NCBI GenBank assembly: GCA_947501355.1
Contig: CANMVA010000001.1
Span: 2,503,492 to 2,567,491, forward strand
Origin: an uncultured Paracoccaceae bacterium
GTDB taxonomy: Bacteria > Pseudomonadota > Alphaproteobacteria > Rhodobacterales > Rhodobacteraceae
Direction: 5' to 3'
DNA: 64,000 nucleotides
How positions within the stretch are numbered: position 1 is the first letter of the stretch; each line of letters begins with the position of its first letter. The notes beneath the pieces were generated by a model. The model was not told the DNA's origin and searched no databases. It was given only the letters and a program-made list of their open reading frames with translations. Below are positions 20,198 through 56,322 of this stretch, one piece after another. The position numbers and the translations under genes are program-made.

Positions 20198-20215
20198 GCA
20201 AACAGCATACTCAAA

Positions 20216-20231: not shown

Positions 20232-20236
20232 GAGAC

Positions 20237-22956: not shown

Positions 22957-23867
22957 GCCTTTCAACGCTGACAAAGCCATGGGAAGCGATGAGCTATGGC
23001 TTTCTTGACGGCTCGGCCAAGCGCGAGCTGCGCCGCAAGATGCTGAAATCCGTCGCCGTGCCGGGGTGCCAGATGCCCTATGCCAGCCGCGAAGTGCCGA
23101 TGGCACGCGGTTGGGGCACGGGCGGGCTTCAGGTATCGCTGACGCTGGTGAACCCGCAAACGCGTGTGAAGGTCATTGACCAAGGTGCCGACGACAGCGT
23201 CAACGCCGCGTCGATCCGGCGCTTCATTGCACGGGTGGCGGGCACGCCCACGACGATGGACACTCTTGAGGCAGACCTCATCCAGTCGCGCCACCGCATC
23301 CCCGAAGAGGTTTTGCGCGACGATCAGGTCCTTGTGTTGCAAGTGCCCAACCCAGAGCCGCTGCGGCCGGTTCAGCCCAATATGTCCATCGCCCGCCAGA
23401 TGCACGCGGATGCGGATTACGGGCGGATGTGGCTGCAGCTTTACGAGCAGATCGTGCGCTCGGGCCGGGTCATGCAAGGCGCGAGCTATCCCAGCCTTGT
23501 ACACGGTCGCCATGTCATGACGCCCTCACCCATTCCGCGTTGGGACGTTCCGAAACTGCATATGGCAAAGCACCTGACGATCCTGTCTGCGGGCCGGGAA
23601 AAGCGGATCTTTGCGGTCCCGCCCTATACGCGGGTAGAGCCTTTGGTGTTCTCGGATGTGCCCTACAAGGTCGAAGACCATGGTAATCTGACATGCACCC
23701 GGTCCGGCACCACGGGCTTTTTCATGAACGAGATTCCGCAGGATGATAGCAGTTCCGCCTTCGAAGTCTCGGACAGCGAATGGGGTGTGAAGACCATTCG
23801 CGCGCGCGAGGGCGAAGGCGAAAGCCGGGGCGAGACCTGGTATAAAGACGGTGAGATGCCACAATGA
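22953..23867 (+). CDS. phnJ: PhnJ-like protein (copy 1) lacking the canonical Fe-S cysteine motif
   Basis: VPGCQMPYASREVPMARGWGTGG, IDQGADDSVNAASIRRF, SPIPRWDVPKL; C-term LTCTRSGTTGFF...AFEVSDSEWG in place of CX2CX21CX5C. Confidence 0.88.
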   Translation: MSLSTLTKPWEAMSYGFLDGSAKRELRRKMLKSVAVPGCQMPYASREVPMARGWGTGGLQVSLTLVNPQTRVKVIDQGADDSVNAASIRRFIARVAGTPTTMDTLEADLIQSRHRIPEEVLRDDQVLVLQVPNPEPLRPVQPNMSIARQMHADADYGRMWLQLYEQIVRSGRVMQGASYPSLVHGRHVMTPSPIPRWDVPKLHMAKHLTILSAGREKRIFAVPPYTRVEPLVFSDVPYKVEDHGNLTCTRSGTTGFFMNEIPQDDSSSAFEVSDSEWGVKTIRAREGEGESRGETWYKDGEMPQ

Positions 23868-24661
23868 CATTGACCCTCGATGCCCCCCGCATTGTTGAAA
23901 CGCGGCCTCTTCTTGAGGTGAAGGCCGTATCCAAATCCTACGGCCCCGTGCAGGCCGTGCGCAACGTCTCAGCCCATGCCTATCCCGGAGAGGTGCTTGG
24001 TATTGTCGGCGAAAGCGGATCGGGGAAATCGACGCTGCTGCGGATGATGAACCTTGAGGAGATCCCGGAGACGGGCAGCTACACGCTCGACCTGCCGGAC
24101 GTGTCTGGCAATCTCTTTGAACTGGACCGGTTCGCCCGCCGGATGCTCTGCGCGACCAAGATCGGGATCGTGTATCAGAACCCCCATCTGGGCCTTCTGA
24201 TGAAGCATTCTTCGTCTGGGAATGTTGCCGAACGGCTTTTGGTCGCGGGGGAACGCAGCTTTGCGACATTGCGACAAGCGGCCACCGAAGCGCTGGACGC
24301 ATCCGAGTTTCCTCTGGATCGCCTTGACGCGCCGCCGATTGAACTCTCTGGCGGTATGCAGCAGCGGGTCCAGTTAGCCAAGGCAATTGCGCTGGAACCG
24401 GCACTCTTGCTGCTGGACGAGCCAACGACGGGTTTGGATGTGAGCGTGCAGGCGCTGGTGCTCGACACGCTCAAGCGCCTTCAGCAGGACCGACAGATCA
24501 CCATGGTGATCGTCAGCCACGACCTTGGCGTGATCCGCACGCTGGCGGACCGCGTTATGGTGATGCGACGCGGCGAGGTGGTAGAGACCGGCCTTGCGGA
24601 TCAGATTTTCCAAGACCCGCAGCATCCCTATACGCAACAATTGGTGCACGCGAAGCTATGA
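23864..24661 (+). CDS. phnK: PhnK (copy 1), ABC ATPase-like
   Basis: GESGSGKST, LSGGMQQRVQLAKA, position. Confidence 0.9.
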   Translation: MTLTLDAPRIVETRPLLEVKAVSKSYGPVQAVRNVSAHAYPGEVLGIVGESGSGKSTLLRMMNLEEIPETGSYTLDLPDVSGNLFELDRFARRMLCATKIGIVYQNPHLGLLMKHSSSGNVAERLLVAGERSFATLRQAATEALDASEFPLDRLDAPPIELSGGMQQRVQLAKAIALEPALLLLDEPTTGLDVSVQALVLDTLKRLQQDRQITMVIVSHDLGVIRTLADRVMVMRRGEVVETGLADQIFQDPQHPYTQQLVHAKL

Positions 24662-25377
24662 CACAGGTTCTGGAAATCGACAGGCTTACCAAGGGCTTTT
24701 CGCTGCATCATCTTGAAAAGGATATTGCGGCTTTTGAAGACATCTCTTTCAGTGTTGCAGCCGGTGAGTTCGTGTTGCTCAAGGGGGCAAATGGGGCTGG
24801 TAAATCGACGCTGTTGCGCACGCTCTACCGGTCTTACCTGCCGCTATCTGGAGAAATCCGGTTTCATTCCAGCCATGGCATGATTGACCTCGCGCGGGCC
24901 GCTGATGTGGATGTTGCACACTTGCGGCGCACCGAGATCGGGTTTGTGACGCAATTCCTGACTGCACGCCCGCGCGTGAGTGCCGAAGCCATCGTGGCCG
25001 AGCCGCTCAGGCTTGCCGGGTGGGAACATGAGGCAGCTTTGAAGACTGCCCGCAAAGCGCTTGAAACCTTTGGTGTAAAGCCGGACCTGTGGGCCGCCTA
25101 TCCGACAACGTTTTCGGGCGGTGAACAGCAAAAAGTGAACCTCGCCCGAGCGCTCATCCTGCCGCAAAAGCTGTTGATGCTGGACGAGCCAACTGCCTCG
25201 CTTGACGCAAATGCGCGCCGTGCGCTGGTGGCCCGACTGCAAGAATTGAAAGATCAGGGTACGGCGATGATCGGTGTCTTCCATCACCCTGACGATGTGA
25301 TCCACCTGATCGACCGTGTGGTTGATCTGACCCCCGACGCGGCCCCTCAAGAGGATCGAGATGATGTGGCTCTCTGA
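24658..25377 (+). CDS. phnL: PhnL (copy 1), ABC ATPase-like
   Basis: [36 protein letters not shown], position. Confidence 0.9.
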   Translation: MTQVLEIDRLTKGFSLHHLEKDIAAFEDISFSVAAGEFVLLKGANGAGKSTLLRTLYRSYLPLSGEIRFHSSHGMIDLARAADVDVAHLRRTEIGFVTQFLTARPRVSAEAIVAEPLRLAGWEHEAALKTARKALETFGVKPDLWAAYPTTFSGGEQQKVNLARALILPQKLLMLDEPTASLDANARRALVARLQELKDQGTAMIGVFHHPDDVIHLIDRVVDLTPDAAPQEDRDDVAL

Positions 25378-26527
25378 CGTAAAACTCATCCTGGCAGACC
25401 AGATAATAGAGAATGGCGCGCTGCGGATCGAAAACGGCATCATTGCCGAGATCACCGAGAGCGCGGGCCAGCCGTCCGGCTTCACCGTGTTTCCAGGCTT
25501 CATCGACATGCACGGCGATATGATCGAGCTTGAGTTGGAGCCGCGTCCAAAGGTCGATTTCCCGATGGACGTTGCGGTCGGTCATCTGGATGCGCGCCTT
25601 GCTGCTGCCGGTGTGACGACGGCCTATGCGGGCGTGTCCTTTTCGCGCAGCGCGAAGGATGGAGAGCGACGGTCCTTTGAGCATACAAGCGCGATCATTC
25701 GTGCACTCAAGGATAACATCCAAGGTCTTCGGGTCGATCACCGCATCCATGCGCGGTTTGACATGACCTATACAGATGCCATCGCCGCACTCGAAGGTTT
25801 GCTGGTGGCGGGGGCGGTCGATCTTGTTTCCGTCATGGATCACACCCCCGGGCAAGGCCAGTATCGCAACATCGAAAAGCTGATTTCTTACCGCATGAAG
25901 GGCGGCAAAACCGAAGAAGCAGCTCGCTCCGAAATCCAGACACGAATGGACAATGCCGTGCCTGCGGAACAGCTGTTGAAGAACCTTCACGACGTCTCGC
26001 GGCTCTGCAAAGCCCACGGTGTTGCGATGGCGAGCCATGATGACGACACAATCGAAAAGGCCAATTTAATGGCAGATATTGGCGTGGTCATCAGTGAGTT
26101 TCCCGTGACGCTGGACGCGGCGAAGGTCGCCAAGGAACGCGGGCTTATGATTGCCATGGGCGCCCCCAACGCAATGCGCGGGCAAAGCTATTCCGGCAAT
26201 CTTTCTGCACGCGACGCCCATGCAGCTGGTTTGCTGCAAATTCTGGCGGCGGACTATCACCCTGCTGCCATTTTACCGGCCATTCGCGCTCTTTCCGGAT
26301 CTGATCCTGATAGGTTGGTCGGAGCGGTACGCCTCGCATCAAGAAACCCCGCGAAGGCTCTGGGCCTTTCGGACCGGGGCGAAATCGCCGTTGGCAAACG
26401 GGCTGACTTGGCGGTTGTCAATCGCTCGGACCGCGTGGTGCAAACCTATTGTGGCGGGGACACCGTTTTTTCAAATGGGGCCGGTTCACATCTGTCGTCA
26501 CACCCAAGGATAGCCGCCACCGCATAA
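25361..26527 (+). CDS. phnM: PhnM-family amidohydrolase (copy 1, HGD type)
   Basis: FPGFIDMHGDMIELELEPRPKVDFP, MDHTPGQGQYRN, MGAPNAMRGQSYSGNLSARD. Confidence 0.88.
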   Translation: MMWLSDVKLILADQIIENGALRIENGIIAEITESAGQPSGFTVFPGFIDMHGDMIELELEPRPKVDFPMDVAVGHLDARLAAAGVTTAYAGVSFSRSAKDGERRSFEHTSAIIRALKDNIQGLRVDHRIHARFDMTYTDAIAALEGLLVAGAVDLVSVMDHTPGQGQYRNIEKLISYRMKGGKTEEAARSEIQTRMDNAVPAEQLLKNLHDVSRLCKAHGVAMASHDDDTIEKANLMADIGVVISEFPVTLDAAKVAKERGLMIAMGAPNAMRGQSYSGNLSARDAHAAGLLQILAADYHPAAILPAIRALSGSDPDRLVGAVRLASRNPAKALGLSDRGEIAVGKRADLAVVNRSDRVVQTYCGGDTVFSNGAGSHLSSHPRIAATA

Positions 26528-26749
26528 AGAAGGCCTGAGCACTGGAAGCGCCGTGCAAGGGCGCGGCCGATCTTGCAAGGCAGGTTTCGAAACCGGACCT
26601 CCCCGCGTTTGGCTATGACAACGTGCCGATACATGGCGAGATCGAGCTTTGCATCTCCATCCAACCAGCGTCGCGCCACAGCGCACGTAACCCAACTTTT
26701 ACAAAAAGGACTCTTTGGCGTCACAGAGGCAGGTCATCTTCGCATTGAA

Positions 26750-26765
26750 ATTCATTCGGATGAAT
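26750..26765 (+). promoter_or_regulatory. Putative PhnF1 operator, site 2 (immediately upstream of phnC1)
   Basis: ATTCATTCGGATGAAT identical to site 1; ends 1 nt before the GTG start. Confidence 0.65.
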
Positions 26766-26766
26766 C

Positions 26767-27570
26767 GTGATGGCTTCTGATCTTACCCTCACTGGTGTCT
26801 CCCGGCTCTTTGACGAAACGCGTGCCGTGGACAATGTCACGTTAAAGATCAAACCGGGGCAGTTCGTTGGCGTCATCGGTCGCTCTGGCGCTGGCAAGTC
26901 CACGATGCTCCGTTTGATCAATCGTCTTATCGACCCCAGCGAGGGGTCGATTTCGTTCGGGGGTGTCGAAATCACGAGCCTCCGCGGCAAGGCCCTGCGC
27001 AATTGGCGTCGCGATTGCGCGATGATTTTCCAACAATTCAATCTGGTGGACCGGCTGGACGTGCTGACCAATGTGCTTGTCGGGCGGCTGGCTGAACATG
27101 GGTTTCTCAGTTCCATGGCCATGAAATTCACCGACGCAGAGCGCGCGATGGCGCTGCAAGCTCTGGACCGGCTGGATTTGGTGCCACAAGCCCTACAACG
27201 CGCAGGCACGTTGTCCGGCGGGCAGCAACAGCGTGTGGCGATTGCTAAGGCTCTTGTGCAGCAACCCAAGATTATGCTGGCCGATGAGCCGATTGCCTCC
27301 CTTGATCCTGCGAATGCGACCCTCGTCATGGATGGCCTGCGCCAGATCAACAAGGAAGACGGGCTGACCGTTCTGGTGAACCTCCACACACTCGACACCG
27401 CACGCGCGTATTGCGACAGGATTATCGCGATGCGCAGTGGTCAAGTGTTCTTTGACGGGGTTGCAGCCCAACTCACGAATGATGTCGTGCGGGACATTTA
27501 CGGCCTCGAAGGCCTCCGAGAATTCAATGAGGCGGTGACGTCGACCCAATCTGTCGCCCTACCCGCCTGA
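26767..27570 (+). CDS. phnC: Phosphonate ABC transporter ATPase PhnC (copy 1)
   Basis: [42 protein letters not shown]. Confidence 0.92.
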
Positions 27571-27612
27571 CCCGAGTTTCCAACTGCCAAACCAACCAAG
27601 GGGGACCTGACC

Positions 27613-28512
27613 ATGAAATACCTTGTTACCACTGCACTGACCGCTCTGCTGGCCACAACGGCTGTCGCTGATGACTGGAAAGACGACTACCAGATCATCC
27701 GGTTCGGCATCCTGTCTGGTGAGAATGAAAAAGACCGGATCGCACGTTACACACCGTTTGAGGCGTATCTTGAACGCGAACTCGGCGTTGAGGTCGAAAT
27801 CTTTACCGCAGGCGCATATGACGGTGTGATCCAGGCCCTGGCAGCCGACCAGATCGAGTTTGCGTTCCTCGGCTCGTCCTCTTACGCCGCTGCCTACACT
27901 GCAACCGATGGCGCCGTCGTGCCACTGGTGAGCCGCCTGCAGAATGATGATTCAACCGGCTATTACTCTATCCTTGTCACCCGCTGCGACAGCGGCCTGA
28001 ACGATCTGGCTTCGCTGGAGGGCAAAGTCCTTGCATTCGCCGACCCGGATTCAACGTCAGGCTATGCAGTGCCGTATTACAACATCGCACAGGAAGTCGA
28101 CCCAAAGACCTTCTTCTCGGCCACGCCGTTCTCCGGCTCGCATGAAGCTGGCGTCGCTGGTGTTGTGCAGGGCACATTCGATGCGGCCGCCACATACATG
28201 ACAAACGAGACCTCGGGGATCATCCCGCGCATGGTTGAGAAAGGCATGATCGCGGAAGGCGAAGCCTGCCCGATCTGGCAGTCTCCCGAAATCACATCTG
28301 GTCCCCTGACTGCGCGCGCCAATTTGCCGGAAGAGCTGATCGAAGCGATGCGCACGGCGATGTTGGAGTTGGCTGAGAAAGACATGGCGGCCCTCAAGGA
28401 AATGTCTGGTGGCGAAACATCGACGCAGAAAGATTGGATTGCGGTCGATCAGGAGCGCTACCAGTGGATCGTGGACATGCGCGCGTGGCTGAAAGAGCAG
28501 CGCCGGTCCTAA
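27613..28512 (+). CDS. phnD: Phosphonate-type ABC transporter substrate-binding protein PhnD (copy 1)
   Basis: Signal peptide; IRFGILSGENEKDRIARYTPFEAYLERELG, FADPDSTSGYAVP. Confidence 0.9.
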   Translation: MKYLVTTALTALLATTAVADDWKDDYQIIRFGILSGENEKDRIARYTPFEAYLERELGVEVEIFTAGAYDGVIQALAADQIEFAFLGSSSYAAAYTATDGAVVPLVSRLQNDDSTGYYSILVTRCDSGLNDLASLEGKVLAFADPDSTSGYAVPYYNIAQEVDPKTFFSATPFSGSHEAGVAGVVQGTFDAAATYMTNETSGIIPRMVEKGMIAEGEACPIWQSPEITSGPLTARANLPEELIEAMRTAMLELAEKDMAALKEMSGGETSTQKDWIAVDQERYQWIVDMRAWLKEQRRS

Positions 28513-28525
28513 AATCAAAAACTTG

Positions 28526-28550
28526 GACCCTCGCCGATTTGGCGGGGGTC
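28526..28550 (+). terminator. GC-rich hairpin plus short T tract between phnD1 and phnE1
   Basis: GACCCTCGCC-GATTT-GGCGGGGGTC then TTTGTTT; 9/10 paired stem. Confidence 0.55.
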
Positions 28551-28572
28551 TTTGTTTGTGGGGATTTCAAAC

Positions 28573-29505
28573 ATGACCGCTGCCGCCGACGTGACGCCCC
28601 TGCGTCCGATTGATCAGTTTGAGTTTGACTATGCTGCCCAGAGGCGGCGCGCGAAGCTTGGTTGGCTGATCGCGAGTATCCTGTTTTTCGTGTTTTTTGC
28701 TTTTTCGGCGTGGCTCGGAGATTTCTTTAAGGTCACGCAGGTCACATTGCCGGATGGATCGCGAGACTGGCGCTGGATCATTCCGGCAGGTCTCCCCCGA
28801 TTGGGGGAATTTATCGAAAAGACGCTCCCGGTTCTGCGGTGGGACACCTTTGGCGCAGATTTTGCCGAATGGTTCTGGCGTTGGCACATCTGGCTGAACC
28901 TCTTGGTTGAAACCATTTTGATCGCCTTCATGGCGACAGTGCTTGGCGTGTTCGGTGGGTTTGTCATGTCATTCCCGGCTTCCCGAAATCTCGCCCCAAA
29001 CAAGTGGGTGCTTTGGTTCAGCCGTCGCTACCTCGAAATTGCGCGCACAGTGCCGGAACTCGTCTGGGCGCTCATATTTGTCTTCTGCTTTTCAGTGGGC
29101 CCTATGGCGGGCGTGTTGGCCATCGGGCTGCATACCGCGGGAGCCTTGGGCAAGCTCTATTCGGAAGTGAACGAAAACATCGACATGCGTCCGCTGGAAG
29201 GCGTCAAAGCGGCTGGCGGCACATGGTTTGATCAAATCCGTTACGGCGCCGTCCCGCAGGTCATGCCGAACATCATCAGCTATACGCTGTTGCGGTTCGA
29301 GATCAACGTGCGCGCCTCTTCCATCATTGGCTACGTCGGCGCAGGCGGGCTTGGCCAGGAGTTCCGCGAGGCGCTCTCCTTGCAGGAATACACCGACCTG
29401 TCAGCCTTGTTCCTGATCATCTTTGTGACCGTCATGGTCATTGACTACGGATCAGAAAAGCTGCGCCACAAGGTTATCGGACTTGAGAAAGGGCCAGCGA
29501 CATGA
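28573..29505 (+). CDS. phnE: Phosphonate ABC transporter permease PhnE (copy 1a)
   Basis: ABC permease; RTVPELVWALIFVF, VGAGGLGQEFREAL. Confidence 0.9.
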   Translation: MTAAADVTPLRPIDQFEFDYAAQRRRAKLGWLIASILFFVFFAFSAWLGDFFKVTQVTLPDGSRDWRWIIPAGLPRLGEFIEKTLPVLRWDTFGADFAEWFWRWHIWLNLLVETILIAFMATVLGVFGGFVMSFPASRNLAPNKWVLWFSRRYLEIARTVPELVWALIFVFCFSVGPMAGVLAIGLHTAGALGKLYSEVNENIDMRPLEGVKAAGGTWFDQIRYGAVPQVMPNIISYTLLRFEINVRASSIIGYVGAGGLGQEFREALSLQEYTDLSALFLIIFVTVMVIDYGSEKLRHKVIGLEKGPAT

Positions 29506-29539
29506 CTGTCCTATCGCTTTGCTGCCTGAGGACTGCGAC

Positions 29540-30397
29540 ATGACCCCGACCGACGCCCAGATCGAAAACTGGATGAAAAAGCAGCCCCGCGCTTTCCGGG
29601 ACACCCCGGTCGTCCGGGCGCGCAAAATCGCGCTCTGGACTGGCTTCTTCGCTTTGTTCGCGTGGTGTCTTTACGACTTCAATTTCTCACCAGATCGGAT
29701 CTGGATTGGCCTTCAGCGTCTTGGGACCGTTGTGTCCTTCATGTTCCCGCCGCACTTTTGGGAAACCTGGCCGGAATGGGTTGAGGTGTTCACAGCGCTT
29801 GGCGAAACCGTCGCCATGGCGTTTTTAGGCACCGTATTAGGGCTTATCATCGCCTTTCCAATTTCCTTCCTTGGGGCCAAGAACATCACCCGTATTTTCT
29901 GGCTGCGCCACTCTGCGCGCCGCGGCTATGACATCATCCGGGCGTTTGAGACACTCATCCTCGCGCTGATCTTCATCCGAGCCTTTGGCTTGGGTCCCTT
30001 GGCAGGCATTCTTGCCATCGCAGTCTCAGAAATCGGGACCTTCGGAAAGCTCTTCTCAGAAGCGCTGGAGAACACCTCAAAACGCCCGGTAGAGGGCGTT
30101 GTCGCCTCGGGCGGATCACGGTTCCAATCTATTCTCTATGGGATTATGCCGCAGGTTCTGCCAGTGCATCTGTCCATCATCCTGTACAACTTCGAATCCA
30201 ACGTCCGCTCTTCCACGATCCTTGGCATCGTCGGCGCAGGCGGCATTGGCTTTATGCTGTCTGACCGGATTGCGGGGCTCTTTTGGGATCAGGTCTGGAC
30301 GATCATCTTCCTGATCATCGCGATGGTCTATATCGTTGATTACCTCTCCGGCCTGATCCGCACCCGGGTCATTGGTAAATGGGAGGGCGCGCACTGA
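29540..30397 (+). CDS. phnE: Phosphonate ABC transporter permease PhnE (copy 1b)
   Basis: ABC permease; GTFGKLFSEALENTSKRPVEGV, IVGAGGIGFML. Confidence 0.9.
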   Translation: MTPTDAQIENWMKKQPRAFRDTPVVRARKIALWTGFFALFAWCLYDFNFSPDRIWIGLQRLGTVVSFMFPPHFWETWPEWVEVFTALGETVAMAFLGTVLGLIIAFPISFLGAKNITRIFWLRHSARRGYDIIRAFETLILALIFIRAFGLGPLAGILAIAVSEIGTFGKLFSEALENTSKRPVEGVVASGGSRFQSILYGIMPQVLPVHLSIILYNFESNVRSSTILGIVGAGGIGFMLSDRIAGLFWDQVWTIIFLIIAMVYIVDYLSGLIRTRVIGKWEGAH

Positions 30398-31022: not shown

Positions 31023-31580
31023 ATGCGCCTCGTCTTACCTTCTGCAGACGGTCTTGATGCCTACTGCACCGCGCTTGAAACCGGCTGGTCCCCGCGCACG
31101 ACCCGACCAGAAGCCGCGATGGAGGAATTGCAGGCAATCTCACGCGATGCAAAGGCCTTCCTTGCATCCCTGAATGATCCCGGCGCGTGTGGCCCCGACA
31201 TCCAGTTGCCAGACGGCAGCTCTGTGAAACGCCTTCCAAGTTTCCGCCGCTGGATGTGGAAGGATGGCTTTTGCGGCAGCATCGAGCTTCGATGGCAGCA
31301 CGGCACCAATGCCCTCCCCCCGACATGCCAAGGCCATATCGGATATTCCGTTGTTCCGTGGCGCAGGCGCGAAGGGGTGGCAACAGCCGCACTCGCAGCA
31401 CTTTTGCCAGAGGCCCGGCACGTTGGCCTGACCGCCGTCGACCTGACCGCTGATCCGAGCAACATCGCTTCCATCCGCGTGATCAAGGCCAACGGAGGAC
31501 AGCTGGTCGAACGCCGTGACAAAATGCACGTCCATGGAGAGGGTCAGGAGCTGCTTTACCGTATAGATCTTGTTGTATGA
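31023..31580 (+). CDS. GNAT-family N-acetyltransferase
   Basis: IGYSVVPWRRREGVATAALAALLPEARHVG...VDLTADPSNIASIRVIKANGG. Confidence 0.85.
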   Translation: MRLVLPSADGLDAYCTALETGWSPRTTRPEAAMEELQAISRDAKAFLASLNDPGACGPDIQLPDGSSVKRLPSFRRWMWKDGFCGSIELRWQHGTNALPPTCQGHIGYSVVPWRRREGVATAALAALLPEARHVGLTAVDLTADPSNIASIRVIKANGGQLVERRDKMHVHGEGQELLYRIDLVV

Positions 31581-44230: not shown

Positions 44231-45102
44231 CCGACCAGGCTTACAACTTCGCCTACCTCGACGAGCAAACCAAACGGATGATCCGCCGCGCGATCCTCAA
44301 AGGGCTCGCCATACCCGGCTATCAGGTGCCCTTCGCGAGCCGTGAAATGCCCATGCCCTACGGCTGGGGCACCGGAGGCGTTCAAGTTTCGGCAGCGATC
44401 CTGACACCCGACGACACTTTCAAGGTGATCGACCAAGGCGCCGACGATACGACCAATGCGGTCTCGATCCGGTCCTTTTTTGAACGGACCGCTGGCGTGG
44501 CGACCACAACTGCGACATCCGCGGCGAGCGTGATCCAGACCCGTCACCGCATCCCCGAGGAGCCACTGACCGAAGATCAGATCCTCGTCTACCAGGTGCC
44601 GATCCCAGAGCCTCTTCGCTTTCTGGAGCCACGCGAGAGCGAGACCCGCAAGATGCACAGCCTTGAGGAATACGGGCTGATGCATGTGAAGCTTTACGAG
44701 GACATTAGCCGCCACGGCCATATCGCCACCTCTTACGCCTATCCGGTTAAAGTCGAGGAGCGCTATGTGATGGACCCCTCCCCGATCCCCAAATTCGATA
44801 ATCCGAAGCTGGGCGACATGGCAGCGATCCAGCTTTTTGGCGCAGGCCGCGAGCAGCGGATCTACGCGTTGCCACCCTACACGCAGGTCGTGAGCCTCGA
44901 TTTTGAAGACCACCCGTTTGAGGCCACGAAAGCCGACCAGGTCTGCGGTCTTTGCGGCGCAACCGACAGCTACCTTGACGAGGTGATCGTGGACGACGCC
45001 GGCGGACGGCTCTTTTGCTGCTCGGACACCGATTACTGCACAGCCCGCCGCGCCCAAGGCCATCAAGGCCCTGCCTTCCTGGACAGTGAGGCTGTCGCAT
45101 GA
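44227..45102 (+). CDS. phnJ: PhnJ, canonical C-P lyase radical SAM subunit (copy 2)
   Basis: IPGYQVPFASREMPMPYGWGTGG; CGLCGATDSYLDEVIVDDAGGRLFCCSDTDYC = CX2CX21CX5C. Confidence 0.96.
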   Translation: MTDQAYNFAYLDEQTKRMIRRAILKGLAIPGYQVPFASREMPMPYGWGTGGVQVSAAILTPDDTFKVIDQGADDTTNAVSIRSFFERTAGVATTTATSAASVIQTRHRIPEEPLTEDQILVYQVPIPEPLRFLEPRESETRKMHSLEEYGLMHVKLYEDISRHGHIATSYAYPVKVEERYVMDPSPIPKFDNPKLGDMAAIQLFGAGREQRIYALPPYTQVVSLDFEDHPFEATKADQVCGLCGATDSYLDEVIVDDAGGRLFCCSDTDYCTARRAQGHQGPAFLDSEAVA

Positions 45103-45671
45103 GCGGTAACGTCATCATTCTAACCCACGCAGATGTGGCCATCGACCCGGTCGTGCCAGTGCCCGAATGGGGACTAAACGAGACCGGCCGCGCCCGACAC
45201 GCCGCTTTTGCGGTGACGGCCGACCTGTCCGCCGTCACTGCCATCTACGCCAGTACCGAACAAAAAGCCCGTGATGGCGCCGCGCCCATCGCCACACGAC
45301 TGGACCTGCCGGTGCACACACGCGAGGCGCTCGGCGAAAATGACCGCAGCGCCACCGGTTTCTTGCCGCCAGAGGAGTTTTGGCCGGTGGTCGATGCGTT
45401 CTTTGCGAGGCCCGAGACCTCCACACGCGGTTGGGAAACGGCAAAGGCCGCGCAGGATCGCATTCTGGGCGCAGTCAAAGATGCGGTCGCCGAAGCGCCC
45501 GCAGGCGACATCGTGATTGTCTCCCATGGCGGGGTCGGCAACCTGTTGCGCTGTGCGTTGCTGGGTAAGCCGATCTCCAGAGATGAAGACCAGCCACATC
45601 CCAAAGGCGGTTGCTGGTTCAGCCTTCCCCGAAATTTTGATGCTGCTCCGACAGATTGGAACGCCATATGA
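45099..45671 (+). CDS. Histidine-phosphatase-family protein with variant THA motif, between phnJ2 and phnK2
   Basis: LTHADVAID...PEWGLNETGR...VIVSHGGVGNLLRCALLG. Confidence 0.75.
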   Translation: MSGNVIILTHADVAIDPVVPVPEWGLNETGRARHAAFAVTADLSAVTAIYASTEQKARDGAAPIATRLDLPVHTREALGENDRSATGFLPPEEFWPVVDAFFARPETSTRGWETAKAAQDRILGAVKDAVAEAPAGDIVIVSHGGVGNLLRCALLGKPISRDEDQPHPKGGCWFSLPRNFDAAPTDWNAI

Positions 45672-48359: not shown

Positions 48360-49551
48360 GAACTCCCCTTTTCCGGCATCGTCTTTGACAAAGAAACATG
48401 ACAACTCGGTGTCAGCCGATCTTTGCCTTGCCAATGCCCAACTTGTTTTGCCAGATCGCGTGATGGTTGGGTCCATCACAATCGAAGCAGGCGTCATCTC
48501 TGAGGTTATCGAAGGCGACGCCATCCCGACAGGCGCTTTGGATTGCTGCGGTGATCTGGTGATACCAGGACTTGTCGAGTTGCATACCGACAATGTCGAA
48601 CGCCACATTGAGCCGCGACCTGAGGTTGACTGGCCCCATCTGCCTGCCCTGTTGGCCCACGATGCAGAATTGGCCTCGACCGGCATTACGACCGTGTTCG
48701 ATGCCATGCGCGTGGGGTCTATCCATTCCGGCAAAGGCCGCTACGTCGATTATGCCCGCAAACTCGCGGACGAGCTTCTGGCCGCGCGCGCTGACGGCAT
48801 GTTCAAAATCAGTCACTTTCTCCATCTGCGCGCCGAGATTTGCTCTGAAACGTTGCTTGACGAATTGGCAGCGTTCAGCCCGGAAGATCGCGTCGGCATT
48901 GTCAGCCTGATGGACCACACGCCGGGCCAACGGCAATTCCGTGATCTGACGGCGCTAAAGACCTACGTCGCCAAAAAACGCGGCATGAATAACGCCGAAT
49001 TCGCCGATCACGTTCAAAATCTGCTGAGCCTTCAAGAACGCTTCGGCGCCAAGCACGAAACCGGCGCGGTGGCCGAAGCCAGCCGTCTGGGTGCCGTCCT
49101 TGCCAGCCATGATGACACCACGGCAGAGCATGTGCAGACCTCCGCACGCCATGGGGTGGGCTTTGCCGAATTCCCGACGACCGTTGAAGCTGCCGACGGC
49201 TGCCGATCACACGGGATTGCCGTCATGATGGGCGCGCCAAATCTGATCCGGGGCGGGTCGCACTCCGGCAATGTCGCGGCCGAGGACCTGGCAAAGCAGG
49301 ACCTGCTGGACATCGTTTCCTCCGACTATGTCCCATCGGCGCTTTTGCTTTCTGCCTTCCATCTGGCGCGCATCTGGAACGACATCCCGCGTGCCATCGC
49401 AACGGTGACGCGCAACCCGGCGAAAGCCGCACGCCTCGACGACCGCGGATTGCTAAAAATCGGCATGCGCGGCGATGTTCTGCGCGTCCGCCAAGTTGGG
49501 ACCACGCCCCTGCTACGCGGTGTTTGGAGCCAAGGTGTGAAGATCGGCTAG
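48358..49551 (+). CDS. phnM: PhnM-family amidohydrolase (copy 3, canonical HTDN type)
   Basis: IPGLVELHTDNVERHIEPRPEVDWP, MDHTPGQRQFRDL, MGAPNLIRGGSHSGNVAAEDL. Confidence 0.92.
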   Translation: MNSPFPASSLTKKHDNSVSADLCLANAQLVLPDRVMVGSITIEAGVISEVIEGDAIPTGALDCCGDLVIPGLVELHTDNVERHIEPRPEVDWPHLPALLAHDAELASTGITTVFDAMRVGSIHSGKGRYVDYARKLADELLAARADGMFKISHFLHLRAEICSETLLDELAAFSPEDRVGIVSLMDHTPGQRQFRDLTALKTYVAKKRGMNNAEFADHVQNLLSLQERFGAKHETGAVAEASRLGAVLASHDDTTAEHVQTSARHGVGFAEFPTTVEAADGCRSHGIAVMMGAPNLIRGGSHSGNVAAEDLAKQDLLDIVSSDYVPSALLLSAFHLARIWNDIPRAIATVTRNPAKAARLDDRGLLKIGMRGDVLRVRQVGTTPLLRGVWSQGVKIG

Positions 49552-49874
49552 GGCGGCGTCCGAAAATGCTGCCATGCAGCTTTTGCAGTGGTAAAGGCAT
49601 AGGCAAGCAACGGTGCCGCAATTGTCAGTTGAATGTCGGCCAAGCTTTCGCGCCATCGCCAAAGGCCAAAACTGCGCAAATCATCGCGCGCATCCAAGAC
49701 TTCCATCGTGACACCGGCGAGAAGCGCACCCGCAAGTGCCAGAGAAAGAGAGCGCTTGCCTATAAGGGTGGCCAGCAGAATTGCAGCCCCGATCGCCATG
49801 TGAAAATAATCCCGATCCAAAGGGATATAGCCTTGAAGCCAGAGTTTCAGCGCTTGGTATCCAGAGGGATCCAA
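49548..49874 (-). CDS. Small membrane protein, unknown function
   Basis: ORF with hydrophobic segments, abuts the downstream end of the minus-strand operon. Confidence 0.5.
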   Translation of the reverse strand: MDPSGYQALKLWLQGYIPLDRDYFHMAIGAAILLATLIGKRSLSLALAGALLAGVTMEVLDARDDLRSFGLWRWRESLADIQLTIAAPLLAYAFTTAKAAWQHFRTPP

Positions 49875-49878
49875 GGCG

Positions 49879-50694
49879 TCACACCACCAGACCCAAGCCC
49901 TTCAAGTAAGCAAACCCTTGCGGAATGTCCGATTTGCGGCGCAGTTCCAGAACAAGATGCGGCTCGGATGTGCAGTCAGACAACGCACGGAACACCTCTT
50001 GCCAGTGAATCTCGCCTTCGCCCGGTGCCCAGTGCCTGTCCGCGTGGCCATCAACGTCTTGCAGATGAACATGGCGAAGATGATCGCCCGCATCGCGTAC
50101 AAAGTAATCGACCGGCGGCGCCCCTGCCATGCGTCGCGCCAGATGCGCGTGGCCGGTATCAATCGACACGGCGATGGCGTCACTATTGAAACTTGCCACC
50201 ATCTCGCGCCGGGTTGCGGGGTCGATATCGACGATGTTCTCGATCACCAATATGATCCCGGCTTGCTCAGCCGCTTGGACCACAGGAACCATTATGTCGT
50301 GGACGAGCGCCAGCTTTTTCTCGGCATAGTCAGGGTTGTTCAGCCGGTTATACGCATACCAGCGGTCATAAGGCGAGTGCAGCACCATCTGGCGCGCACC
50401 AACGCGGTCAGCGGCCTCCAGTGCTTTGAGAAAGCGCGCCGTGATCAGTGGACGCAGCTCGGGGTCCTTATTGTCCATGTCCAGCCCTTCGAACGGGCCA
50501 TGGATGCCGATCCTCCCCTGAAACCCGTCCAACGCCGTGTTGGCCGCAGCAATGCGATCCTCAAAGTCAGTGGTCAAGTCAGCGTGCTGGCTGAATCCCT
50601 GCAATTCAAGGTCGCGGTCTGCGTCGAACAACCAGTCTCTGTGGGCGGCGATCTCGTGCGGCGCGAGGCACGCGCCGATTTTAAGCGGGGTCAT
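49879..50694 (-). CDS. Sugar-phosphate isomerase/epimerase-like TIM barrel
   Basis: FQGRIGIHGPFEGLDM, MVLHSPYD, ILVIENIVD, VSIDTGHAHLA, HLQDVDGHADRHWAPGEGEI. Confidence 0.85.
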   Translation of the reverse strand: MTPLKIGACLAPHEIAAHRDWLFDADRDLELQGFSQHADLTTDFEDRIAAANTALDGFQGRIGIHGPFEGLDMDNKDPELRPLITARFLKALEAADRVGARQMVLHSPYDRWYAYNRLNNPDYAEKKLALVHDIMVPVVQAAEQAGIILVIENIVDIDPATRREMVASFNSDAIAVSIDTGHAHLARRMAGAPPVDYFVRDAGDHLRHVHLQDVDGHADRHWAPGEGEIHWQEVFRALSDCTSEPHLVLELRRKSDIPQGFAYLKGLGLVV

Positions 50695-51889
50695 AGCTGG
50701 AGGTCTCCTGAGATTTACGGGCGTCGGGGATGAAGAAGCTGGCAAGGACAGCGATGCTCAGAACGACCGTCATCGCGGCAAAGCTCACCCAGCCGCCATA
50801 GGTCTGCGTCAGAAAGGCAAAAGCAAAGGGTGCGGAGGCATTCGCCGCCATGGACGCACTGTTGATCCAGCCCAGCCGCGCGCCGTAGCCCTTATGGCCA
50901 AACAGGGCCAACGGCAGGGTGCCGCGCGCAATGGTCTTGATACCGTCACCCATGCCGTACAGCGCCGCCGCCAGCAGGATACCCGGCACGGTGAAGCCCA
51001 CCGTCAAGATTGTCAGGAAGCCGGTCATCATCAGGCCGAGCGACAGCCAATAGGTATTAAGCGGGTAAAGATTACGACTGACGAGCAGCTCCAGAAAACG
51101 GCCTACAGTCTTGAAAGGGCCAATCACGGCACCTGCCAAAGCGGCAAGTGCCACACTATGACCAAGGTCCTGCACATTCGTGACCCATAACGTCATGACA
51201 GCGCCCATCAGGTAGCCCGAAAAGATGAACGAAGCGACCATCCAAAACATGCCTTTGCGACGCGCGAGGCCCGTCAGTTCGGGCCAATCCTGCGGCGTTG
51301 CGCTCTCGCCCCTCGGATCGCGTTCCGGCCCTGAAAGACATACCCAATGCAGCGGCACGCAAATCACGAGATACACCGCTCCAAGGATCATCCACGTCAT
51401 GCGCCAATCCACTGCTTCATAAAGCGCGAGTGTAAGCGGCCAGAAAATCGTCGATGCGACACCGCCAAAAAGGGTGATGATTGTGATCGACCGTTGCGGC
51501 GTGACCGACAGATCAAGGCGTGCAACTGAGGCGAAAGCCACAGAATAAAGAACAAACATCGCAGCCGCCTCAAGGATCAGCACCGCGGCGAAAAGGCTGC
51601 TCCGTCCCTCAACGAAGCCGATGGCCATGGTCGCAAGACCAGCTGCCAGCGCGCCGCCGGTCATGACATAGCGCCCGCCATAGCGGTCGGTCAGCATTCC
51701 GGCGACTGGCGAAAGAAACTCGCCGAAGAACAGAGCCAGCGACAGCACACCGAAAATGCCCGCAAGGGTCAGCCCTAACGGGTCCGCCATCTCAGGCAGT
51801 AGAATAGCGTAGGCGTAGTAGAGCACGCCGTAGCCCATGATCTGCGAAACGCCCAGCCCGATCGACGGCAGATGGTCGTGTGTGATCAT
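50681..51889 (-). CDS. MFS transporter
   Basis: 12-TM pattern; MLTDRYGGRYVMTGGALAAG; ATGA overlap with phnM4. Confidence 0.85.
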   Translation of the reverse strand: MITHDHLPSIGLGVSQIMGYGVLYYAYAILLPEMADPLGLTLAGIFGVLSLALFFGEFLSPVAGMLTDRYGGRYVMTGGALAAGLATMAIGFVEGRSSLFAAVLILEAAAMFVLYSVAFASVARLDLSVTPQRSITIITLFGGVASTIFWPLTLALYEAVDWRMTWMILGAVYLVICVPLHWVCLSGPERDPRGESATPQDWPELTGLARRKGMFWMVASFIFSGYLMGAVMTLWVTNVQDLGHSVALAALAGAVIGPFKTVGRFLELLVSRNLYPLNTYWLSLGLMMTGFLTILTVGFTVPGILLAAALYGMGDGIKTIARGTLPLALFGHKGYGARLGWINSASMAANASAPFAFAFLTQTYGGWVSFAAMTVVLSIAVLASFFIPDARKSQETSSYDPA

Positions 51890-53097
51890 GCCCCGGGTTG
51901 CGCGCGATACGCCGCGCGACCTGCAACCCACGTGCCCTGAATGGTTGGCGTATGACCTTTGGGCCAGTCCACCAACACCAGGTCCGCGCGTTTGCCCTCG
52001 GCAATCTCGCCTCGGTCCGTCAGGCCCATGGCCCGGGCAGGACCGGTTGAGACCAGCGACCACAATGACAGCCGGTCCGCGCGTTTCTCCCGATCCAGCC
52101 GGTCTACGGCCGCAAGCATGGCCGGGTAGTAATAGTCCGACGCCAGCATGTCGCAAAACCCGGCTTCAACCATGTCAGCCGCGCCAAGCGAGCCGATATG
52201 ACTGCCGCCGCGCACCGCATTAGGTGAGCCAAAGATGATCATGTCCCCACCCGCGCGCGCCGCTTTGACTGGACCCATGGTCATCGGAAACTCAGACGTC
52301 GTCGCCCCAAGGTCGTGATAAAAGCTGCGCGTCTCCGCCTGCGTGTCATCATGGCTGAGCATCGGGATGCCCCTGTCGCGGGCCTTCGCGGCAACGGTCT
52401 GCGTCGTTGAAACCACGTCCGGGCGCCGCTCCCAAACCCGCTTCACGAGCCGCTTGTGATCTTCATAATCCAGTCCCGAGCGTTCCTTGTGTTTGCTGTA
52501 ACGCTTGGCAAAAAGCGCCTCGTCGCCCACATCCATCACCGGGAAATCGGGGGAGTGTTCAAACAGGCGCTGTTGAATAGGCACCTCTTCGGCGCGCATC
52601 GCCATGGACAGGTGGTCATTGAACGCAAGCGATGGCTTCAAGGGCGCCTCCATCGCCCAGTCGAGCGTATCGAGCGCCTCGAACGCAAATGTCTCCCATC
52701 GCAATTGGACCCTGTTCTCAACCGTCAGACGCGGCGCAAGATCGCGGAGCGCCTCCATCAAGGCCCGCCCGCGTTCGACACTGCGCAGCCCGGGCTCAAA
52801 ACTGAGCGTCACCGAATGGTATGCGGTCGCGATCCCGTTGGCTGCAAGTTGGCGGTCCGTCTCAAGCACAGCGGTTTCCATCGGAAAAAACACGCCGGGG
52901 CGCGGCATCATTTGCCGCTCAAACGCGTCGCCGTGCACGTCGATCAACGCGGGTGCAACGATCTTGCCGCGTGCGTCGATTTCCACGCCCTGAACTGGGC
53001 CACCGATCTCAACGATACGGTCGCCGTCCATTGTCACGGTGGTGTTGGCAATCTCACCGGGCAGGTAGACGTCTGCCCCTACTAAAGTCTGGATCAC
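51886..53097 (-). CDS. phnM: PhnM-family amidohydrolase (copy 4, HGD type)
   Basis: APALIDVHGDAFERQMMPRPGVFFP, MLSHDDTQAETRSFYHDLGA, FGSPNAVRGGSHIGSLGAADM. Confidence 0.88.
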   Translation of the reverse strand: MIQTLVGADVYLPGEIANTTVTMDGDRIVEIGGPVQGVEIDARGKIVAPALIDVHGDAFERQMMPRPGVFFPMETAVLETDRQLAANGIATAYHSVTLSFEPGLRSVERGRALMEALRDLAPRLTVENRVQLRWETFAFEALDTLDWAMEAPLKPSLAFNDHLSMAMRAEEVPIQQRLFEHSPDFPVMDVGDEALFAKRYSKHKERSGLDYEDHKRLVKRVWERRPDVVSTTQTVAAKARDRGIPMLSHDDTQAETRSFYHDLGATTSEFPMTMGPVKAARAGGDMIIFGSPNAVRGGSHIGSLGAADMVEAGFCDMLASDYYYPAMLAAVDRLDREKRADRLSLWSLVSTGPARAMGLTDRGEIAEGKRADLVLVDWPKGHTPTIQGTWVAGRAAYRAQPGA

Positions 53098-53759
53098 GCT
53101 TGCCGCTCCAGAATGAGATGCCAGTGCAAAGAGCCGGGCCTTTCATGCTCACGGTCTTCCATCCAAAGGACCTCGAACCCCTGAAACAGGGCAAGCATCT
53201 CGACCGCGCCGCAATAATAGTGCGGGTGGCGCTTGTCAGAATAGTCCTCATCAAAGACCCACGTATTGCGGCTGATTTCTTTCGGACCGTTCAGCTTTTC
53301 GCGGTCGATCCACAGGCGGCGCTTCGACAACATGGTCAAGAGAAAGGTCCCGCCTGGCTTAAGAACGCGGCGGACCTCGGTGATGGTATTCAACAGGACG
53401 GTTTCATCGCCGTGATAGATCACGTTCCAACTCAGCACATGGTCAAAGGCGCTATCCTCGAACGGCAGGTCATTCATACGACCCAATTGGGTCTTCACAC
53501 CAGTGCCCACCTTGTCGATCTCGGCCAAGCCTTCAGCTGCCGCATCAAGCGCGGTCAGTTGAAAACCAGCGGCCTGCAAAGAGAGAGCATGCCGCCCAAC
53601 ACCCGCCCCAAGATCAAGGATCGCCGCACCTTGCGCCAAACCCTCGGCCCAACGCTTCACATCCGGTTCAGGCGTGAGCCATTTCGATCCATCTTCAATG
53701 CCATCCCAGATCTTGCTCCAATGCTGGTCGGCTGTGTCGGTCTTGGTCAAAACAGTCAC
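53094..53759 (-). CDS. Class I SAM-dependent methyltransferase
   Basis: AILDLGAGVGRHALSLQAAGFQLTALDAA, EVRRVLKPGGTFLLTM. Confidence 0.88.
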   Translation of the reverse strand: MTVLTKTDTADQHWSKIWDGIEDGSKWLTPEPDVKRWAEGLAQGAAILDLGAGVGRHALSLQAAGFQLTALDAAAEGLAEIDKVGTGVKTQLGRMNDLPFEDSAFDHVLSWNVIYHGDETVLLNTITEVRRVLKPGGTFLLTMLSKRRLWIDREKLNGPKEISRNTWVFDEDYSDKRHPHYYCGAVEMLALFQGFEVLWMEDREHERPGSLHWHLILERQA

Positions 53760-54574
53760 CGTTGTTCTCCGATAATCTTCGTTCGGGCCCAGCCCGAAAG
53801 GTATTCAATTGAGATGACCACAACAGCGATCATCAGGATGACGGTCATGGCAGTGGGGTAATCGAACAGGTCAAACCCGACCTTCAGTTCGATCCCGATG
53901 CCCCCAGCCCCGACCAAGCCCAGAATAGTCGACGACCGGACCGCTTTTTCCGTCGCAAAGAGCGAGGTTGAGATGAACGCAGGCATCGCCGCCGGGATCG
54001 TGGCGCAGGCGACCACATCTATCTTACGCGCGCCAGTCGCGGTCAGGCTTTCCGAAGGGCCCTTGTCGGCGGCCTCCATGTCATCGGCAAAGAACCGGCC
54101 GCAGAACCCAATTGTATCGACCGCAATGGCAAGCATCCCCGCAAACGGCCCAAGGCCCACGGCGACCACAAAGACCAACGCCCATGCGATGTCAGGGACC
54201 GCCCGAATGAACCCAAGCCCCGTCCGCACGATCTGATTGATCCAGGTCGGCGCGATCAGCCCCCGCGCTGCTAAAAGAGCGACCGGCACGGACAGGATGA
54301 TCCCGATCACTGCGCCAGCCAGTGCAATCTGCAAGGTCTCAAGCATCTTCCAACCCAGCCGCGCGAGCACCTGTGGTTCTAGATTGGGCGGGAAGGCTCG
54401 GTCTATGAAATCGGCAAAACGCGGTGGTGAAGACATCACCTTCTCGATGGAGAAGCCTGCCCCCGCAAACGACCAAAGGATGATCAAGATCGCGGCAGCA
54501 TAGCCCAGAAATGCCAGGGCTGACGGGCGCTCATAGCGAGATGGAAGCCCCATGGGATGAGACGCGTCAGTCAT
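53756..54574 (-). CDS. phnE: PhnE-type ABC permease (copy 3)
   Basis: ABC permease; FIRAVPDIAWALVFVVAVG, LVGAGGIGIELKVGFDLFDY. Confidence 0.9.
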   Translation of the reverse strand: MTDASHPMGLPSRYERPSALAFLGYAAAILIILWSFAGAGFSIEKVMSSPPRFADFIDRAFPPNLEPQVLARLGWKMLETLQIALAGAVIGIILSVPVALLAARGLIAPTWINQIVRTGLGFIRAVPDIAWALVFVVAVGLGPFAGMLAIAVDTIGFCGRFFADDMEAADKGPSESLTATGARKIDVVACATIPAAMPAFISTSLFATEKAVRSSTILGLVGAGGIGIELKVGFDLFDYPTAMTVILMIAVVVISIEYLSGWARTKIIGEQR

Positions 54575-55385
54575 AGAGGCCCCGCAGTTTTTCTGCGCTC
54601 AGGCTTTCGGCACGTGCATCCAGCGGCATGCCCCCATCTGCAAGACCCAAGACACGATCCCCGTATTGCAGGGCGTGGTTGATGTTGTGCGAGATGAAGA
54701 TCACCGTCACCCCCTCTTGTCGTGCGAGTTTGAAGAACAGATCCATGACATCCTCGCCCGCTGCAGGGTCAAGCGAGGCGGTGGGTTCATCCGCAATCAA
54801 AATCTTTGGGTCGCCCACCAACGCCCGGGCGATGGCAACCCGTTGAGATTGCCCGCCTGACAGACGATCCGCCCGGCGCGAGGCGAGATGCGCCAATCCC
54901 ACTTTTTCCAACGCCGTCATCGCCGCGTCGCGCGAGGGCGCTGGCGCAAGGCTCTGGCTCCAGTGACGTACACCGGGCTTTTGCCCAAGCAGCCCCTGGA
55001 CCACATTCGACAGCACTGACAAGCGCGGCACCAGATTGTGTTTCTGGCTGACCAAACCCATCTTCGCCCGCATGCTGCGCAGTTGCGCACCCGAGGCATT
55101 GCGCACATCCGTGCCCAAGACGTCTATCACGCCTGCATCGGCAGGGATCAGCCCCATCAGGCACCGCAGCAATGTCGACTTCCCTGTCCCATTGGCACCA
55201 ACAATTGCCACTGCCTCGCCGCGGGACAGGCCGAAGGAAACATCCTTGAAGATCGGTGTTCCGGAAAAGCTCTTCGCCAGGTCGGTGACACGCAGATCAA
55301 CAGGCAAAACCGGGGCAGACGTTCCTGCCCCGGTCTTATCCGGCCGCGCAGGCGCGACCAGGGTTTCCACACCCAAATCAGTCAC
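54567..55385 (-). CDS. phnC: PhnC-type ABC ATPase (copy 3)
   Basis: [45 protein letters not shown] start overlapping the phnD3 stop. Confidence 0.9.
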   Translation of the reverse strand: MTDLGVETLVAPARPDKTGAGTSAPVLPVDLRVTDLAKSFSGTPIFKDVSFGLSRGEAVAIVGANGTGKSTLLRCLMGLIPADAGVIDVLGTDVRNASGAQLRSMRAKMGLVSQKHNLVPRLSVLSNVVQGLLGQKPGVRHWSQSLAPAPSRDAAMTALEKVGLAHLASRRADRLSGGQSQRVAIARALVGDPKILIADEPTASLDPAAGEDVMDLFFKLARQEGVTVIFISHNINHALQYGDRVLGLADGGMPLDARAESLSAEKLRGLYD

Positions 55386-56247
55386 CGATGAAGTTATCAA
55401 ACTGCGGGTAGCCAGCATTCGAGTACATCGCACGAACGTAGTCGTAGGCACTGTCTTCGATCTCAACGAGGTCCATGCCGACATATTTGTCGTTTTCCTC
55501 ATGGGCCGTGATGCCAGCGATGATGCTGTCCTTATTGGCGAGAATGGCTTGCTGAACAGCCGTTGCCGCCTCTTCCGGGACGTGTGCGCCAACCATGATC
55601 ATGTCGTTGGGAAGATCTCCCGAGCGCGCGATCATCTTGAAAAAGCCGTATGGCAAGTCGGTTTCCTTGTTGCGCACGTTGATCCAGCTGCCTGCGTTGG
55701 ACCCAAGCGCATCCACGTCACCGTTCTTGAGCGCTTCATGCGCGATGTTCCGGCTAGTATGTGTCTTCTCGACGTCGTTGACCGGATCGAGACCGTAATC
55801 GGCCAGAACCTGCATGGGGCACAGCATGTTCGACGTGGAGCCAATGTCACCAAACGCGACGCGCTTGCCCTTGAGGCCCATGACAGTATTGATCCCACTG
55901 TCCGCGCGCACGACGATGGCACAATGATAATCTGGACGCCCAAGACCGATGATGGGCGTCGCGTTGGTCAGCTTGTTGATGACCACATACTCGGCAGGAC
56001 CAGAGACAACAAAGTCAACCGTTTCACCGCGCAGCGCTTCGGCTGCTGCTGTGCGCGAATTCACGGCATAGAACTCGAAGGTGTCTCCCGTCGCTGCTTC
56101 AAGAGCATCCTTAAAGGGCCCCCACTCAAGCTGCAGGCGCTCCATGCCTTCAACATCGGTGACGGCCAGTTTCCAGGTTTCAGCTTGAGCCGAAACAGCA
56201 GCCGACAGTGCCAAGACAGCGCCGGCCAGAACAGAACGAAGTTTCAT
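55378..56247 (-). CDS. phnD: PhnD/PtxB-type substrate-binding protein (copy 3)
   Basis: Signal peptide MKLRSVLAGAVLALSAAVSAQA; VDFVVSGPAEYVVI, VAFGDIGSTSNMLCPMQVL. Confidence 0.88.
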   Translation of the reverse strand: MKLRSVLAGAVLALSAAVSAQAETWKLAVTDVEGMERLQLEWGPFKDALEAATGDTFEFYAVNSRTAAAEALRGETVDFVVSGPAEYVVINKLTNATPIIGLGRPDYHCAIVVRADSGINTVMGLKGKRVAFGDIGSTSNMLCPMQVLADYGLDPVNDVEKTHTSRNIAHEALKNGDVDALGSNAGSWINVRNKETDLPYGFFKMIARSGDLPNDMIMVGAHVPEEAATAVQQAILANKDSIIAGITAHEENDKYVGMDLVEIEDSAYDYVRAMYSNAGYPQFDNFIGD

Positions 56248-56267
56248 GGTGATTCCCCCATTGTGAA

Positions 56268-56283
56268 ATTCATCCGAATGATT
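56268..56283 (-). promoter_or_regulatory. Putative PhnF1 operator, site 3 (upstream of phnD3)
   Basis: Minus strand AATCATTCGGATGAAT, 15/16 identical to sites 1 and 2, same orientation relative to the gene. Confidence 0.62.
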
Positions 56284-56304: not shown

Positions 56305-56322
56305 GTGACGCGCAAATGACAT
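56305..56322 (-). promoter_or_regulatory. Putative Pho box upstream of phnD3
   Basis: Minus strand ATGTCATTTGCGCGTCAC, 11-bp repeat. Confidence 0.55.

Follow-up and report, generated by a model that had tools for sequence, protein, structure and literature searches.

In the ocean, a sizeable share of the dissolved organic phosphorus is phosphonate, and the breakdown of methylphosphonate releases methane. The described systems closest to the one reported here include island fGIphn-A of HIMB59, for which phnDCE and auxiliary methyltransferase (MTase) and hydrolase genes were listed in 2023 (PMC10734472), and the marine Rhodobacteraceae fosmid B3_TF_MPn_2, on which a second phnM-like hydrolase was reported in 2013 (PMC3840354). 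Here, we describe an operon in a 64-kb window (64,000 nucleotides [nt], to which all positions refer) from an uncultured Paracoccaceae bacterium. On the minus strand, genes for a phosphonate-type importer (phnD3, phnC3, and phnE3) are followed by genes for an S-adenosylmethionine (SAM)-dependent methyltransferase (MT), a PhnM paralogue (phnM4), a major facilitator superfamily (MFS) transporter, and a triosephosphate isomerase-type barrel protein (TIM). In the open-access literature that we searched, we found no account of this module, which is conserved in marine bacteria, or of its operator or its link to a cysteine-poor PhnJ. Because MT accompanies a phosphonate importer so strictly, and does so in several alphaproteobacterial families, phosphonate chemistry outside the textbook carbon-phosphorus (C-P) lyase scheme is indicated. 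The genes are few, well delimited, and apparently co-regulated, which makes the set tractable for finding what it handles.

The phnDCE-MT operon and its conservation

The gene order, minus-strand orientation, single PhnE, D-C-E arrangement, and overlapping junctions reported in the initial annotation of this stretch were all recovered. Overlaps are short at most junctions: 8 nt between phnE3 and phnC3, GTGA at both MT-phnE3 and phnM4-MT, ATGA at MFS-phnM4, and 14 nt between TIM and MFS. Junction sequences were used to refine the start codons of the operon genes; a longer phnC3 open reading frame (ORF), reaching 55592, would overlap phnD3, and the refined start leaves a gap of a few bases between the two genes. 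It was this longer ORF that scored 243 bits on TIGR02315 (cutoff, 266). Transporters 1 and 2 of the window do have the order C-D-E-E, by Pfam, as had been stated; a D-C-E importer with one PhnE is less unusual than was then thought, since phnDCE is known in HIMB59 and Prochlorococcus (PMC10734472). The small ORF that had been taken as a terminal membrane protein lies 4 nt from TIM and had a homologue in no fetched locus but its own, so that neither its membership in the operon nor its being a gene is supported. From the phnG-H-I-J-K-L-M set that marks a classical C-P lyase operon, this operon holds phnM alone, and the C-P lyase genes sit in neighboring operons.

To follow the module across genomes, MT was chosen as its marker because MT orthologues separate cleanly from other matches. 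In a sample of 197 genomes of the order Rhodobacterales, nine carried an MT orthologue (52 to 100% identity) and a tenth, G037, carried a shortened one; the other matches listed were partial, generic methyltransferases with 26 to 43% identity. A scan of GTDB contigs with MT gave 108 relatives, from which 80 loci were kept, mostly from Rhodobacterales with some SAR116 single cells and one Hoeflea metagenome-assembled genome. A culturable carrier is Shimia ponticola (L043). Neighbor counts were limited to loci with enough flanking sequence (hence the denominators 76, 78, and 70), and some misses of D3, C3, E3, or M4 stem from ORF calling in draft contigs. Upstream of MT, D3 was present in 74/76 loci, C3 in 73, and E3 in 72, and M4 followed MT in 71/78. 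The MFS and TIM genes, which also occur beside other phn genes, were found in 15/70 and 30/70 loci, respectively. The conserved core is therefore D-C-E-MT(-M4), with MFS and TIM optional. Thus, the neighborhood comparison proposed at the outset upheld a dedicated uptake and processing unit insofar as the core is conserved elsewhere and shares the phnF1 operator, but the full set of MT, PhnM, MFS, and TIM does not behave as a unit.

When the whole class was searched with a profile, MT turned up in four genomes from three other alphaproteobacterial families. In three of these, D-C-E-MT adjoins a canonical C-P lyase cluster (G-H-I-J-K-L) without J1, and the fourth is cut by a contig end; none of the four has an M4 orthologue above the cutoff. 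For this reason, D-C-E-MT with canonical C-P lyase looks like the oldest association, and M4 looks like the usual addition in Rhodobacterales and SAR116. We also considered MT as a partner of M4 alone; this was ruled out, as MT occurs with D-C-E in the absence of an M4 orthologue and M4 occurs in the absence of MT.

Several loci vary around the core. In L039 (G037), which keeps M4 and the transporter intact, MT is cut to its N-terminal part and TIM is interrupted by an internal stop; these represent natural partial losses. In L087, L088, and L093, the gene immediately after M4 encodes another methyltransferase (PF08241), different from MT. Ugp-like sugar-phosphate ATP-binding cassette (ABC) transporter genes flank the module in L050, L060, L069, L085, and L086, some with a metallophosphoesterase-like gene, and at one SAR116 locus the gene after M4 resembles a PHP-type phosphoesterase by eye and has no Pfam match.

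Table 1. Positions of the operon, its upstream sites, and related clusters in the window
Feature	Position	Strand	Family or remark
Pho-box-like direct repeat TGTCATttgcgCGTCAC	56305-56321	-	one mismatch; upstream of phnD3; putative function
Palindromic operator AATCATTCGGATGAATTT	56266-56283	-	putative PhnF1 site; 15 bp before phnD3 start codon
phnD3	55378-56250	-	periplasmic binding protein, PhnD/PtxB (PhnT) family; PF12974
phnC3	54567-55370	-	ABC ATPase; GTG start set from junction; TIGR02315
phnE3	53756-54574	-	ABC permease; TIGR01097 (PhnE), 262.6 bits, above cutoff of 216.7
MT	53094-53759	-	class I SAM-dependent methyltransferase, unnamed family; PF13649/PF08241
phnM4	51886-53097	-	type-2 PhnM amidohydrolase with extra loop of ~24 aa; NF011987
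MFS	50681-51889	-	ArsK-like transporter, optional member; NF033733, below cutoff
TIM	49879-50694	-	AP_endonuc_2 TIM barrel, putative multi-metal phosphodiesterase, optional; PF01261
Small ORF	49548-49874	-	possible membrane protein, doubtful membership; no Pfam/NCBIfam match
Pho-box-like repeat and second operator copy	20181-20197 and 20214-20233	+	before phnF1; presumed same regulon
phnF1-G1-H1-I1-J1-K1-L1-M1	20237-26527	+	C-P-lyase-like cluster; Pfam; G1/H1 by order and homology
Third operator copy and phnC1-D1-E1-E1' transporter	26748-30397	+	operator at 26748-26767; presumed same regulon

Co-occurrence with C-P lyase and a shared operator

All 10 module genomes carry a canonical PhnJ, compared with any PhnJ in 126/197 genomes (hypergeometric p = 0.01), and the J1 cluster is present in 5/10 module genomes versus 3/187 others (Fisher p = 6e-6), p values that ignore the relatedness of the genomes. 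Every J1 genome among the 197 also carries J2. PhnJ1 (22953-23867), which had been called Cys-less, is an intact protein that has lost three of the four catalytic cysteines, as have all 15 J1 sequences compared: at the E. coli positions, C244 is Ser, C266 is Val, Leu, or Ile, and C272 is Gly (one gap), while the equivalents of C241, G32, and mostly H108 are retained. The window protein still has two Cys, one of them at the first cluster position (C241). J2 keeps all four cysteines in 17/17 sequences; in the window, a histidine phosphatase gene (45099-45671) sits between phnJ2 and phnK2. In Roseovarius sp. EGI FJ00037 (L034/L079), J1 appears as two separate matches and no I1, K1, L1, or M1 was detected; its J1 cluster looks reduced, and the module is intact.

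PhnP (TIGR03307) was found in none of the 197 genomes, though 126 have a PhnJ match. A 2H phosphoesterase has already been proposed for its role (PMC3840354), a description that fits DUF1045, which is encoded in the J2 cluster and may replace PhnP in Rhodobacterales. We considered TIM as the PhnP replacement and rejected it, because the DUF1045 protein matches this proposal and TIM is not needed for the role.

The palindrome core TCATYCGRATGA occurs in exactly three copies in the window, before phnF1, phnC1, and phnD3, against 0.08 sites expected in 64 kb (18-mer, up to 3 mismatches), which agrees with the earlier claim of an operator common to the phnF1 and phnD3 operons. No copy precedes the J2 cluster or transporter 2 in the window. 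The five J1-carrying module genomes all have the operator before D3, exactly in four cases and with a mismatch in one; among those that lack J1, it is absent before D3 in G036, G156, G018, and G177 and present with one mismatch in G037. Across module genomes, the exact operator at D3 tracks the J1/F1 cluster (p = 0.015). The 80 loci show the site again before D3, phnC1, and phnF1, and many relatives have it at the same position before D3 as the window does; in the Rhodobacter-type clade, none was seen ahead of D3. A Pho-box-like repeat has five matches in the window at up to one mismatch (1.09 expected), three of which closely precede phnF1 (20181), the phnC2 transporter (36452), and phnD3, and it adjoins the operator at phnF1 and phnD3. 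From these sequences, we infer that PhnF1 and PhoB act on the operator and the Pho-box-like sites, respectively, and the module appears to be switched on together with phosphorus-starvation genes.

Candidate functions and competing explanations

PhnD3 exceeds the gathering score of PF12974 (137.9 versus 27 bits) but falls short of the PhnD equivalog TIGR03431 (88.2 versus 261.1), and its best solved relative is PtxB, at 58 bits. Its pocket residues are R66, Y108, STS138-140, N168, and D216 (residue roles from PMC5700983 and PMC12718374). The STS motif is kept; Tyr55, His160, and the capping Tyr208 of Te_PtxB (roles from PMC5700983) align with Arg66, Asn168, and Asp216, so the PtxB-type combination of STS-H and Tyr is lacking. 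Across 76 D3 sequences, both Asn168 and Asp216 are conserved. Asp216 aligns with the E. coli PhnD Asp that holds the amino group of 2-aminoethylphosphonate (2-AEP), where D1 and D2 have Gly. Glu87 of D3 (GPAEY) was considered as a ligand of the third oxygen and dropped, as PMC5700983 names H160, Y55, and S130.

MT passed no NCBIfam equivalog model. It has 45 invariant columns across 70 homologues, and its AlphaFold2 model (predicted local distance difference test [pLDDT] score, 91) has a generic methyltransferase fold; a fold search for its identity gave generic matches alone (TM scores of 0.5 to 0.8) and named no function. PhnM4 passes NF011987 (367.8 versus 253 bits) and fails TIGR02318 (288 versus 390.6). 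Its metal-site motifs (HxD, SHDD, DH, and SDY) are conserved in 76 M4 sequences, whose alignment shows MDHTPGQRQ replaced and about 24 extra residues in that loop. Type-2 PhnM proteins that resemble M4 and lack the insertion adjoin phnF-G-H-I-J-K-L, a canonical C-P lyase cluster, in other families, which makes a role for PhnM4 as an alternative diphosphatase plausible. The MFS protein scores 278 bits on the ArsK model NF033733, below its cutoff of 400.

For TIM, nine candidate metal ligands (H82, H123, E169, D196, H199, H225, D236, H238, and E267; 271-aa numbering) are conserved in 33 orthologues and also in 31 homologues that include paralogues, at what we take to be the metal-ligand positions of endonuclease IV. 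The nearest structures to its predicted model (pLDDT, 94.8) are MJ1311 and TTHB071; epimerases come next, and endonuclease IV ranks 48th. It scores 38.8 bits on the CbiR model NF041277 (cutoff, 105). CbiR belongs to the same superfamily and is a proven phosphodiesterase (PMC7733943). Given its resemblance to CbiR and endonuclease IV and the nine invariant candidate ligands, TIM is likelier to be a phosphodiesterase than the sugar-phosphate isomerase originally named. The canonical C-P lyase loci L167, L168, and L174 lack the MT module and pair a TIM homologue with a second PhnM paralogue. Because TIM homologues join other PhnM paralogues in this way, TIM would be tied to PhnM products and not to MT.

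We read the operon as an accessory C-P lyase branch with its own substrate range, to which we assign a probability of roughly 0.5, and we infer the following chemistry. Phosphate starvation would turn the module on through PhoB, and PhnF1 would hold it off. PhnD3-C3-E3 would import a phosphonate that the standard D1 and D2 handle poorly, perhaps an amino-bearing one, since the cap residue Asp216 is as in the 2-AEP-binding E. coli PhnD. MT would methylate this phosphonate, either as imported or after ribosylation, to let C-P lyase process it or to make it less toxic; position and context suggest a role comparable to that of the E. coli N-acetyltransferase PhnO, to which MT is not homologous. 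PhnM4 would then act on the ribosyl-phosphonate triphosphate as an alternative diphosphatase and, where present, TIM may cut a ribose phosphodiester downstream and MFS may export a product. That the reaction is N-methylation of an amino-phosphonate in particular is a guess and a rather unlikely one, to which one pocket residue, the absence of phnO from three marine clusters (PMC3840354), and the position of MT point.

Several observations weigh against an accessory branch of this kind. The sequence and fold of MT are generic and name no substrate, and a GNAT acetyltransferase is also encoded in the window (31023-31580). E. coli PhnD holds the amine with Glu177 and Asp205, of which D3 matches the Asp alone, and because Arg66 and Asn168 replace Tyr55 and His160 of Te_PtxB, the head of the D3 ligand may not be an ordinary phosphonate. 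M4 persists without MT in two genomes, in a D-C-E-M4 arrangement in G176 and as an orphan in G170; MT is therefore dispensable. To these is added the neglect of relatedness in the co-occurrence p values.

A simpler role in uptake, with the accessory genes little involved, would have PhnD3 bind phosphite, methylphosphonate, or a phosphoester such as glycerol phosphate. PtxB, the closest solved relative of D3, is a phosphite protein, and GpxB, a PhnT-family protein of marine bacteria, binds glycerol phosphates (PMC12718374); but Tyr208, His160, and Tyr55 are all replaced in D3, chain 9lf9 (probably the GpxB structure) matches D3 at 27.6 bits, and the linkage of MT is too strict for an idle gene, all of which makes this role unlikely. 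MT might instead cap a phosphonate-derived ribosyl by-product that the MFS protein excretes. Excretion of ribosyl phosphonates is known from E. coli phn mutants, and MFS overlaps phnM4 in the window. However, MFS adjoins the module in 15/70 loci, compared with nearly all for MT, and its absence from most MT-bearing loci undercuts the excretion of a sugar by-product that had been suggested initially; the two importers in the regulon fit scavenging, and we think such detoxification improbable. Organoarsenicals are a further candidate, with the ArsK-like MFS and MT handling methylated or sugar-bound arsenic that enters through the phosphonate-type importer. The MFS score on ArsK would fit, as would the upregulation of phnD by DMA in Pelagibacter (PMC6426599); but that score is below the cutoff, MT is not ArsM-like (one cysteine; ~23 to 27 bits on ArsM-type models), and the module tracks C-P lyase, so we regard this as very improbable.

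The PhnF1 regulon (G1-H1-I1-J1-K1-L1-M1, two importers, and MT-M4) might also form a separate C-P-lyase-like pathway that ribosylates its substrate and leaves the bond intact or cuts it otherwise. The J1 cluster and the module share an operator and co-occur, and with its three cysteines conservedly lost, PhnJ1 would be unable to perform radical cleavage. Against this, the module occurs with canonical J2 alone in the Rhodobacter clade and in other families, and J2, present in every sampled J1 genome, could do the cleavage; the chance of a separate pathway seems slim. We are equally doubtful of its fuller form, in which the PhnF1/PhoB regulon (the pseudo-PhnJ cluster, C1D1E1E1', and D3C3E3-MT-M4) would run a second phosphonate pathway free of PhnJ radical chemistry: its C-P-lyase-like complex would ribosylate an unusual phosphonate, M4 would trim the triphosphate, and MT and the multi-metal phosphodiesterase would finish breakdown or detoxification.

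Comparison with described systems

Individual parts of the operon have close counterparts. PhnD3 shares the PhnT family and the STS oxygen-binding motif with PtxB, HtxB, and the Prochlorococcus phosphite proteins (PMC5700983) and differs from the PtxB type in having Asp216 and Asn168 at the equivalents of the capping Tyr and His160. Like CbiR and endonuclease IV (PMC7733943), TIM is an AP_endonuc_2 TIM barrel, and its nine His/Asp/Glu candidates would be a further shared trait; unlike CbiR, it sits with phnM, no cobamide genes were seen nearby, and its score is below the cutoff of the CbiR model. Fosmid B3_TF_MPn_2 likewise has an extra PhnM paralogue of undefined role in a marine C-P lyase cluster, a possible counterpart of M4, and no methyltransferase was reported for it.

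At the level of the whole operon, the E. coli phnCDEFGHIJKLMNOP operon shares the importer family, the PhnM family, co-location with C-P lyase, and, in PhnO, an accessory tailoring enzyme; it has no methyltransferase, second PhnM, or TIM barrel, and it has PhnP. L182 (G452), which we take to be HIMB59, showed no M4 orthologue, J1 cluster, or TIM. For fGIphn-A of HIMB59, PMC10734472 lists genes alone, with no homologue comparison and no operator. As here, that one island brings together phnDCE, a methyltransferase gene, and C-P lyase genes in a cluster, the layout also seen in G452/L182.

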